Of a stretch of 64,000 nucleotides of DNA, positions 55,004 through 58,628 are shown in pieces. Positions within the stretch are counted from its first letter, which is position 1; each line of letters begins with the position of its first letter. Origin of the DNA: Teretinema zuelzerae (GTDB lineage Bacteria; Spirochaetota; Spirochaetia; Treponematales; Treponemataceae); contig NZ_JAINWA010000003.1 of assembly GCF_021021555.1 (NCBI RefSeq), forward strand, positions 992,001 to 1,056,000, given 5' to 3'. The notes under the pieces are model-generated. The model searched no databases and was not told the DNA's origin. It saw nothing but the letters and a program-made list of their open reading frames with translations. Both the position numbers and the translations under genes were made by a program.

Positions 55004-56761
55004 TTACAGCTCGATGGACCGGCTCGAAACCTTTTCTTCTATATAAGAGACGAAGGAGTCGAGGGTCATAACCTTCTGTTCGCCGCTTCTGAAGCGCACA
55101 GCAACGGATTTTTCGTCCATTTCTTTTTGCCCCACAACCAGCTGGTACGGAATTTTGAAGCCCTGATGCTTGCGGATCTTCGCGTTCATCCGGTCGTTGT
55201 CCACGTCCGCTTTGACGCGGATGCCGGCGGCGCTCAGCCGATCGGCGACTTCGACAGCATAGCCGTCGAATCCGGGTGCTACCGGAATGACCACGACCTG
55301 GCGGGGCGCGAGCCACACGGGGAAGGCGCCGGCGTAGTTTTCGATCAGGATGCCGATGAAGCGTTCAAGAGAGCCGAGAGCCGCGCGATGGAGCATAACC
55401 GGAGTATGCTTCGAGTTATCCTCGCCGATGAATTCTGCGTTCAGGCGCTCCTTCGAGGGAAGCTGATAATCTACCTGAATGGTGCCGCACTGCCACTGGC
55501 GGCCGAGGGCGTCGACCAGGGTGAACTCGAGCTTGGGTCCGTAGAAGGCGCCCTCTCCCGGAGCAACTTCATAGTCGAGGTTCGCTTTTTTACAAGCATC
55601 GGCAAGGGCTGCTTCCGCGCGGTCCCAGGTTGCGTCGTCACCGACCCGTTTTTCCGGGCGGGTGGAAAATTTCACCAGAATGGTATCCGGATCGAAGCCG
55701 AAGTCGCGGTACATGCTCTTCAAAAGCTCGCAGAATTTCGCGACTTCCGAGGGAATCTGCTCCTCGGTGCAGAAGATGTGCCCGTCGTCCTGAACGAAGC
55801 CGCGCACGCGCATAATGCCGTGCAGGGAGCCCGAAGGTTCGTTGCGGGTGCAGGAGCCGAACTCGGCGATGCGCAGGGGCAGATCGCGATAGCTTTTGAT
55901 TCCTTGCTTGAAAATCTCGATGTGGCCGGGGCAATTCATCGGCTTGAGGGCGAACAAGCGCTTTTCGCTTTCGGTGATGAACATGTTTTCGCGATATTTC
56001 GCCCAGTGGCCTGAACGCTCCCAGAGGCTCTGAGGCATGACGAAGGGAGTGTTCACTTCCTGGTACCCGTCGGCGCGGATGCGGGTGCGCACATAGTTTT
56101 GAACCAGAAGATATACGAGCCAGCCGTCGTTGTGCCAGAAAATTTCGCCGGGGTTCTCGTCGTCGATATGCAGAAGGTCCAGTTCGCGGGCAAGCTTGCG
56201 GTGATCGCGCTTTTCAGCCTCCGCGAGCATGTCGAGGTACGCCTTCAGATCGTTCGGCTTTTCCCATGCAGTGCCGTAGATGCGGGTGAGCATGGGCCTC
56301 TTTTCGTCGCCGCGCCAGTACGCTCCGGCGGTTTTCATAAGCTTGAAGGATTGGGCGTTGATCTCGCGGGTGTTCGCGACGTGGGGGCCCCGGCAGAGGT
56401 CGAGAAACGCTCCGGATTGATACACGGAAATGATCTCGCTTTCGGGAAGGTCCTGAATCAGTTCGGTCTTGAACGGTTCGTCCTTAAAGAGCTCGAGGGC
56501 CTCCGCGCGGGAGACTTCCCTGCGGACGAAATCGCTGTGCGCGTTGATGAGTTTCCGCATTTCTCGCTCGATCTCGGGAAGGTCGTCCGGAGAAATCGCG
56601 CGGGGAAGCTGGAAGTCGTAGTAAAAGCCGTGGTCGATGGACGGTCCGATCGCCACTTTAGCGCCGGGAAAGAGGGTTAAGACGGCTTCGGCCATAACAT
56701 GGGCGGTGCTGTGCCGCACCAGATCGAGTCGTTCGCTTTTCGGGGGAAGGGTTGCGTTCAT
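55004..56761 (-). CDS. thrS: Threonyl-tRNA synthetase, form lacking the TGS domain
   Basis: 585 residues against ~640 in E. coli. It begins almost at once with the editing domain ([17 protein letters not shown], ~17), so the ~60-residue N-terminal TGS domain is absent. The catalytic core is complete: [23 protein letters not shown] with the zinc Cys, class II motif 2 [19 protein letters not shown], motif 3 [15 protein letters not shown], and the anticodon-binding domain (VVIPVAPGF onward). AAGGAG precedes the ATG. A T-box leader upstream couples expression to uncharged tRNA-Thr. Confidence 0.97.
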
Positions 56762-57106
56762 AAAAGGCTCCTTGCGTTTCGGGAATCATCCAGCCCGACG
56801 GCTGAATGCGGCATATACCGTCTACGCGGGGACGAAAATGCAGGATCCGGTTCGATCTGCCTTTCCGCGGTTCCACCCCGCTTCGATTCCCCCTGACGGG
56901 GAGCGCTCTCATCGCCGTTAACGCACGGAAAACGGCCGCAGATACATAGGCTTGAATACAAGCTGTTCCCCGCGGCGGCTCGGGAGGGGTTTTCATCGGG
57001 ACCGGAACCGGCGGACTCTCAACCTGTGCGGGAATGTCGATTCCAGCAGCTGATCCGCTTCTCTCATGGTTCGGTTCTCCGGCTACTCGTCTCCGTTATC
57101 GCCTGT
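56762..57106 (-). promoter_or_regulatory. T-box leader of thrS (tRNA-Thr sensing)
   Basis: The minus-strand leader of ~345 nt has T-box parts in the right order. Stem I: AACGGAGACGAGTAG with the AGTA loop-E side (57084-57098), GAGAGAAGCGG, and a distal CTGCTGGAATC. The GGAG/CTCC basal helix encloses GATGAAAACC, whose ACC (56988-56990) is a Thr specifier codon. Next come a GCTTG-CAAGC hairpin and GATGAGAGCGCTCCCCGTCAGGGG. The antiterminator bulge is GGGGTGGAACCGCG (56866-56879), in which TGGA would pair with the tRNA acceptor end. No U-tract follows before thrS. Family known (T-box, Rfam RF00230); the specifier assignment is by eye. Confidence 0.85.
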
Positions 57107-57112
57107 AATACG

Positions 57113-57141
57113 AGAATAGCCCCCGTTTTATGCCATGTCAA
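57113..57141 (-). promoter_or_regulatory. thrS promoter
   Basis: Minus strand: TTGACA (57136-57141), 17 bp, TATTCT (57113-57118), with the start expected near 57106, directly before T-box stem I. Confidence 0.75.
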
Positions 57142-57173
57142 GATCCTTTACGGCATCAGGGCTAACCTATGCC

Positions 57174-57202
57174 TTGCCGTTTCGCGGTTTTTAACCGATA
57201 AT
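57174..57202 (+). promoter_or_regulatory. Predicted promoter of the orphan gene at 57213
   Basis: TTGCCG (57174-57179), 17 bp, GATAAT (57197-57202). The -10 overlaps the first possible ATG at 57201, so translation should begin at the second, 57213, ten bases after the -10. Confidence 0.5.
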
Positions 57203-57212
57203 GGTACCAGTT

Positions 57213-58628
57213 ATGGAACAAAACCAGTCTTTTAACGACCTCCTTTTTCAGGCGATCATGGAACGCCAGCAGTATTTCGACTCTATGCTTCTCCCAAAGC
57301 TCCAGGAAGAATTCCGGATAATGCAGAGCGCGTCGAAAACGATTCTGACGGTATTGCAAAAAAAGGGCGTGATCAGGGATGATCCGTACAACTACGACAG
57401 CAAGCGGGCTGATATAGAAGTTCCGCCCGAGGACACGTTCAGCGATAATGAAAAGGCCGCGATCATAGGACGACGGCTTTCGCAGTACGAAGCCATGCTT
57501 GATTACCTCAACAACTACTATCAGTTCAACTGCGATTACCTCGCTACCGACCGTATTCAAAAAATGGTGGCGCTGAACCGCACCTTCACCTGGGAATCGT
57601 TCTCCATCACCTCGACCCGCCCCAACACGAAGGGTCTCGCGGATCTCGTGAACAACATACGGAACGGCTCGGATCCCCTGTCGATCAGCATCATCAACGA
57701 CGCCCTCACCCAGCTCAGCAAATCTTCGATCTCGATCACCAAAACGCTGAAAATGCTCACCGATTTCCACCGCGAACGCTATAAAACAGCCGTTCGCAAG
57801 ATGGTCATGCCCGGAGCGGTGATCAATCCGGCAAGCCTTTCAAACGGAACATCCGCGGCGCTCAAGGAAATTAAAAAATCTTTCGCCGTCAACATGAAAG
57901 ACCAGCCCTTCTACACCGAGCTGATCGAAGAAATTCTGAAAGAAGAATATTCCCCCGAACACGCGGTTCTGCAGCAGGAGCTTCTCGCCCGCCTCGCGAT
58001 TTCCAAACAAAACCAAACAAAAACCGCTTCCGCCGAAAGCCTCAAGCCTGTCCTCCTCGACGGAATCAGAACGCTCGGCAGCGTCTCGCCTCAGCTCGAC
58101 GAAATCGTCGCAAAACTCGCGGAAAACAACCATCTGCTCGCGAACATCGAAAAAAGCTTTTTCGAGAAGTTTTCAGAACTCCTGAAAAAAGCGTTCAACA
58201 TAAAAAAACAGGACGAACTCATCTGGATTACCTCGATCGATCCGGCCACTCAGACCGGCAAGCGCGAGCAGCTCAACCTTACGGAGTTCATCGAGGACAT
58301 CCGCCACCGTTCAAGAATTTTCACCGGCTTCACCCTGCGCAGTTCCCCGGCGTTTCAAAAAATCGAACTCATGGACGAGTCCCAAATTTTGGATCTTCTC
58401 ACCCGTAACCTCGCAGAACTCGGAACGGTTTTGAAGCAGTGCGCGGGGCTCGACGATTATTTTAAGCAGAACGCCCCGCCGGAAATCAGAGACAGAGTGA
58501 GGGGAATTAAGGTGGAAATATCCGCGATCCGCAACAATATCGTAAAAGCCAACCAATGCAGGGCCGAATACGCTTCCCAGGTGGAAGAACAGCAACAACT
58601 CAAAAAACTGGGAATTACTCATGGTTAA
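57213..58628 (+). CDS. Conserved-looking cytoplasmic protein of unknown function
   Basis: About 471 residues from MEQNQSFNDLLFQ. It is soluble, almost entirely helical and hydrophilic, with long amphipathic stretches (for example ~60-200 and ~290-340) but few perfect heptads. No catalytic motif seen. It could be a structural or scaffold protein. The ATG at 57201 falls in the predicted -10, so I prefer 57213. Its end overlaps the OppA-like gene by 8 bases, so the two are probably expressed together. Confidence 0.75.
   Translation: MEQNQSFNDLLFQAIMERQQYFDSMLLPKLQEEFRIMQSASKTILTVLQKKGVIRDDPYNYDSKRADIEVPPEDTFSDNEKAAIIGRRLSQYEAMLDYLNNYYQFNCDYLATDRIQKMVALNRTFTWESFSITSTRPNTKGLADLVNNIRNGSDPLSISIINDALTQLSKSSISITKTLKMLTDFHRERYKTAVRKMVMPGAVINPASLSNGTSAALKEIKKSFAVNMKDQPFYTELIEEILKEEYSPEHAVLQQELLARLAISKQNQTKTASAESLKPVLLDGIRTLGSVSPQLDEIVAKLAENNHLLANIEKSFFEKFSELLKKAFNIKKQDELIWITSIDPATQTGKREQLNLTEFIEDIRHRSRIFTGFTLRSSPAFQKIELMDESQILDLLTRNLAELGTVLKQCAGLDDYFKQNAPPEIRDRVRGIKVEISAIRNNIVKANQCRAEYASQVEEQQQLKKLGITHG

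Follow-up and report, generated by a model that had tools for sequence, protein, structure and literature searches.

The leader of the threonyl-tRNA synthetase gene thrS in the window, by which we mean the whole analysed stretch of 64,000 nucleotides from Teretinema zuelzerae, is a full-length T-box, and we put the probability that the thrS transcript begins with a threonine T-box riboswitch at about 90%. The element itself is of a known kind; its host phylum is not listed among those of T-boxes in the literature searched, and we judge its output to be unlike the canonical terminator form.

Identity and anatomy of the thrS leader

The preliminary description of this DNA had placed a T-box at 56825-57106 before thrS, and the element proved real: searched alone, the leader matches the Rfam model RF00230 at 57108-56825 on the minus strand, over the full model (1-219 of 219), with 72.8 bits and an E-value of 5.8e-16. 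A sigma-70-like promoter precedes it, and thrS (55004-56761, minus strand) follows it. No other RF00230 match occurs in the three contigs of the 3.6 Mb genome, and a genome scan with a pattern of the bulge and the 3' arm returned the thrS leader as its single match (none with the reversed pattern), further T-boxes sought by this pattern not being found. When the whole window was scanned with Rfam at the gathering score, nothing matched; the T-box leader reaches 72.8 bits versus a cut-off of 93. A below-threshold covariance score, which the preliminary description had regarded as speaking against a T-box, was therefore obtained to the letter, but relatives exceed the cut-off. The gathering score of RF00230 serves as a practical threshold and does not reflect a biological feature; two of five control genomes with a match reach it and three stay below. 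Among the 294 genomes of the order sample, 11 have a leader that reaches it, as do 25 of the 393 in the phylum sample, and several relatives score higher than the window leader. Given the E-value, the covariation and these above-threshold relatives, we dropped the low score as a refutation.

The predicted fold is supported by compensating changes among relatives. RNAalifold yielded 42 pairs for 13 leaders, 22 of which show changes on both sides, compared with 12.5 in shuffles and 5 to 12 when the partners were slid; 94% of the cells are paired under this structure, versus 81% in shuffles and 35-49% with slid partners. The paired structure is thus kept in close relatives, another point on which the preliminary description had let its claim depend. 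Chance, which it had called unlikely, is excluded by the E-value over the full model, the single match in the genome and the strong covariation, and the specifier fits thrS. The probability that the leader belongs to another structured kind, or resembles a T-box by accident, is practically nil: the score below the gathering score would speak for it, but it is already refuted by the E-value, the ordered landmarks, the covariation and a specifier matching the gene.

Stem I, the ACC specifier and the antiterminator bulge were all found in the sequence between promoter and thrS, in the order given in the preliminary description and on the minus strand throughout. The promoter (TTGACA-17-TATTCT, 57113-57141) matches at 10 of 12 positions in a pattern scan; the leader region contains two promoter-like sites, compared with 0.2 in shuffles, and transcription would be expected to start at the foot of Stem I, close to 57106. 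The base of Stem I is formed by a 5' arm GGC (57101-57103) and a 3' arm GCC (56979-56977), which constitute the first covarying helix with pairs of the GC, AU and GU types. In lower Stem I, GGAG (57091-57094) pairs with CUCC (56986-56983) and adjoins the K-turn, and AGUA (57084-57087) contributes, together with GAA, the S-turn (loop E) of the specifier loop; both motifs are invariant in the 13 leaders. Stem I is long, with a distal bulge AGAGA (57060-57064; Rfam and 13-leader alignments), part of the elbow-binding double T-loop, and its partner GGUUGA in the apical loop (57019-57024), where G-N-U-G is conserved and whose role is assigned according to PMC7583486. The specifier loop GAAAACCC (56987-56994; Rfam alignment) holds the threonine codon ACC (56988-56990), which is assigned by its position in the loop and is invariant in the 13 leaders; GAAAACC is found in the specifier loop of nearly all of 52 leaders of the class.

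Downstream of Stem I follow Stem II (56936-56976; helix 4, compensating changes in 6 of 7 pairs) with the S-turn UGUA (56946-56943), the F-box GCGUUA of Stem IIA/B (56919-56924; Rfam alignment, conserved in the 13-leader alignment) and Stem III (56884-56905; helix 6, compensating changes in 6 of 8 pairs). The antiterminator or antisequestrator (56826-56881) is indicated by the Rfam alignment and by the minimum-energy fold of the 3' part. It includes helix A1 (GCGGGG, 56881-56876, with CCCCGC, 56831-56826), the T-box bulge UGGAACC (56869-56875; Rfam alignment) and helix A2 (GCGGAAA, 56868-56862, with UUUUCGU, 56838-56832) plus an extra hairpin. The Shine-Dalgarno sequence of thrS, AAGGAG (56768-56773), was recognized from the sequence, with the start codon 6 bases downstream. 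The term canonical, chosen in the preliminary description, is apt in that the landmarks are complete and less so in that a terminator is lacking and three usually conserved positions are changed. According to the 13-leader alignment, the window has A in the K-turn where G is usual, and UGUA in the Stem II S-turn where most relatives have AGUA; the base after the specifier is C and not the usual purine, a C that is also found in 3 of the 12 other leaders.

ARAGORN predicted three tRNA-Thr genes in the genome, with anticodons GGU, CGU and UGU. The specifier ACC is complementary to the anticodon of tRNA-Thr(GGU), and the discriminator of all three is U73, which would allow the UCCA end of uncharged tRNA-Thr to base-pair with the bulge UGGA. 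In T-boxes, the bulge and the tRNA discriminator are described as covarying. This covariation is not general in the class, and the window's own match is real: tRNA-Thr(GGU) carries U73 in all 18 other genomes where it was found, and despite this most class leaders (L098, L099, L106, L223 and others) have the bulge UGGU, which results in a U-U mismatch. As a strong proof of a T-box the UGGA-U73 match is weakened by these UGGU leaders, which also face U73 tRNAs.

From these features, binding of tRNA and sensing of its charging by the window leader can be inferred. The ACC specifier of Stem I would pair with the tRNA-Thr anticodon GGU, and Stem I would also dock on the elbow of this tRNA. The free 3' end UCCA of uncharged tRNA-Thr would then pair with the UGGA bulge and hold the antiterminator-like helix, leading to expression of thrS; charged tRNA-Thr would not pair with the bulge, and thrS expression would fall. 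Decay of the T-box in the window, with the fold still inherited but switching lost, is improbable. The changes in the K-turn and the Stem II S-turn, the lack of a competing second fold and a score below that of several relatives would be expected of such a remnant, but every contact element is preserved, the tRNA is matched by both specifier and bulge, the pairing has been kept by compensating changes, and the promoter is located directly upstream.

Occurrence in spirochaetes

A survey published in 2008 found no T-box in six spirochaete genomes (PMC2494555), and a 2013 survey limited T-boxes to Firmicutes, Actinobacteria, Chloroflexi and Thermus/Deinococcus plus Geobacter (PMC3766115). The text of TBDB refers to the major phyla, spirochaetes being unnamed (PMC7778990), and according to a paper from 2023 no riboswitch other than the TPP riboswitch has been characterised in spirochaetes (PMC10319736). 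We found no paper on a spirochaete T-box in the open-access literature, and the preliminary description had not counted spirochaetes among the usual hosts, yet T-boxes are widespread in the class. Those above the threshold have probably already been marked by automatic Rfam annotation. A class of spirochaetes is thereby added to the hosts of tRNA-sensing leaders.

Within the genus, RF00230 matches were obtained for 9 of 12 genomes. A protein search of the remaining three showed that the assemblies of two lack thrS and that in the third a contig ends at thrS, so that every visible thrS leader of the genus has a T-box. At higher ranks, the family sample yielded matches in 13 of 145 genomes and the order sample in 78 of 294; in the phylum sample 72 of 393 genomes match, and all but one of these, 71, belong to the window's class. 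All these counts are lower bounds, few candidates having been scored per genome. In 40 of the 43 T-box loci first checked thrS is the downstream gene, and the matches in the class are mostly located before thrS. Nine related spirochaete loci, mostly from Treponema, encode a related ThrS and have no T-box, which points to loss.

The preliminary description had left open whether the element was acquired by transfer or represents an overlooked lineage trait. With T-boxes across genus, order and class, and with a leader tree that groups by lineage, we favour the latter, i.e. a T-box before thrS as an old trait of this spirochaete class and not a lone transfer. A recent transfer from Firmicutes, in which T-boxes are richest (PMC2494555, PMC3766115), would be in line with the foreign exchange seen in the catalytic core of ThrS; it is nevertheless very improbable, as thrS T-boxes occur in many families of the class, leaders group by lineage, and the flanking ThrS domains and the leader go together. 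An old transfer may have taken place at the root of the spirochaete class.

T-boxes before genes other than thrS were also observed in the class (L210, L230, L233, L239, L244, L247, L250, L251, L258, L259, L261). Targets, named by eye, comprise aspS, a trpBA operon, a tryptophanase, an aminotransferase, a ligase gene with a cupin-type regulator domain, and a sodium symporter-like as well as other transporters, one of them adjoining trpD.

Two kinds of leader and the output of the window leader

Leaders of the genus and its nearest kin are of two kinds, with and without a terminator. The first is found in G003, G010, G005, G008, G036 and one copy of G007; in these sister leaders (L002, L004, L006, L005, L008, L012) a hairpin of -12 to -20 kcal/mol is followed by a U run, and its 5' arm lies within the antiterminator, so that they are, judged by sequence, clearly transcription attenuators. 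The terminator-free kind comprises the window leader, G009, G004, G006, G028 and the second copy of G007. No terminator-like site was detected in the window region 56700-57260, and no terminator in the five further leaders of the window's kind. G007 encodes two thrS of different lineage (L166, L167), each with its own T-box, one with and one without a terminator. The presence of both kinds in one genus, and even in one genome, makes the switch from transcriptional to translational control testable among close relatives.

The two kinds also differ in their predicted folds. For the 3' part of the window leader, the antiterminator fold reaches -48.4 kcal/mol versus -41.1 kcal/mol without A1, and in five of the six terminator-free leaders the antiterminator is the more stable fold, whereas in leaders with a terminator the fold without A1 is mostly favoured, by about 7-20 kcal/mol overall and by about 7-14 kcal/mol in those of the genus and its nearest kin. 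Since no terminator was recognised from the T-box to the start codon of thrS, a translational output is likely, and by exclusion we somewhat favour translation initiation as the step controlled in the window clade. In the window, AAGGAG has a predicted accessibility of 0.45 when the antiterminator is formed and 0.44 when it is not, and constrained folding did not find a helix hiding the window's Shine-Dalgarno sequence. Control of transcription, via Rho or via a terminator lacking a U run, appears rather unlikely for the window T-box. Most known T-boxes do act on transcription through terminators (PMC7583486), sister leaders from the same genus are clear attenuators with U-run hairpins, and folding gave no sequestering helix in the window; against this stand the lack of terminator-like sites in the window region and the further leaders of its kind and the antiterminator as the most stable fold in the window.

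The leader can be compared with two known systems. With the thrS T-box of Firmicutes (RF00230, class I, long Stem I) it shares the Stem I S-turn, AGAGA, the apical loop, Stem II, the F-box, Stem III, the antiterminator bulge and a threonine specifier before thrS. It differs in its spirochaete host and in the changed K-turn and Stem II S-turn, and the terminator of the Firmicutes element, which is also present in the sister leaders of the genus, is missing from the window leader. The translational T-boxes of Actinobacteria (ileS; class II of TBDB) likewise have no terminator, and their switch is expected at the ribosome-binding site; an extra hairpin on A2, as described for translational T-boxes (PMC7583486), is also found in the window. 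Their Stem I is mostly short or intermediate (PMC7583486), in contrast to the long Stem I of the window leader with its elbow-binding loops, and the target differs (thrS).

A possible route to translational control emerges from class-wide comparison. Of 25 terminator-free leaders with a UGGUACC bulge, 22 have GUAC adjacent to the Shine-Dalgarno sequence, versus 2 of 15 leaders with this bulge and a terminator (Fisher P 4e-6, which overstates independence because the leaders are related). For this count, terminator calls in L011, L122 and L211 were disregarded, as on visual inspection they belong to the antiterminator. The pattern is seen in several families (L095, L101, L106, L111, L112, L113, L115, L117, L119-L122, L204, L206, L211, L212, L214-L217, L221); it occurs in none of 22 leaders with another bulge base and in 3% of shuffled contexts. 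The bulge is complementary to GGUAC, and the two are paired in the predicted folds of L111 when folded freely and of L106 and L112 when folded without A1. This suggests that in terminator-free UGGUACC leaders the bulge masks the ribosome-binding site and that tRNA lifts the mask. If true, uncharged tRNA would compete through its 3' end with the ribosome-binding site for the same bulge bases, and the pattern would suggest a simple working principle for translational T-boxes. Beside the window's own Shine-Dalgarno sequence, both GGUUC, which would match the bulge UGGAACC, and the GUAC signature are absent.

History of the threonyl-tRNA synthetase

The thrS gene was identified by TIGR00418 (696 bits), Pfam domains and PDB matches. 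The encoded protein starts at the editing domain (about residues 9-166), lacking the TGS domain found at the N-terminus of E. coli ThrRS, and continues with the catalytic (about 185-480) and anticodon (488-576) domains. Trees of the separate domains disagree: the editing and anticodon domains of the class form largely one grouping, and the catalytic cores split into two deep groups. In the sample used, one of these groups clusters with cores from betaproteobacteria. The ThrS proteins of G005, G008 and G036 are plain mosaics with flanks of one group and the core of the other. The core of the window protein is 95% identical to that of G008 (about 77-90% at the DNA level), and its flanks are nearer to other species.

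These patterns indicate that the ThrS core (about residues 195-480) has been swapped as a cassette between two deep lineages, an exchange seen in the window at 55004-56761 and also at L165, L169 and L172. The leader type follows the flanks of ThrS and not its core, which implies an exchange of the catalytic core beneath a T-box that was itself retained. Selection by natural ThrRS inhibitors is a conceivable cause. A tree of the whole ThrS is misleading as a history of the gene, core and flanks having different histories. Taken together with the GUAC pattern, we tentatively envisage a large spirochaete T-box family in which a terminator-free GGUACC bulge masks the Shine-Dalgarno sequence, from which the window clade with its UGGAACC bulge is derived, and in which the ThrS core was replaced as a cassette; the odds for this combined picture are slightly adverse.

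On the other side of the thrS leader, and diverging from it, lies a gene at 57201-58628 on the plus strand, in which no Pfam domain was found and which is assigned to the TP0584 family (NCBIfam, 609 bits).
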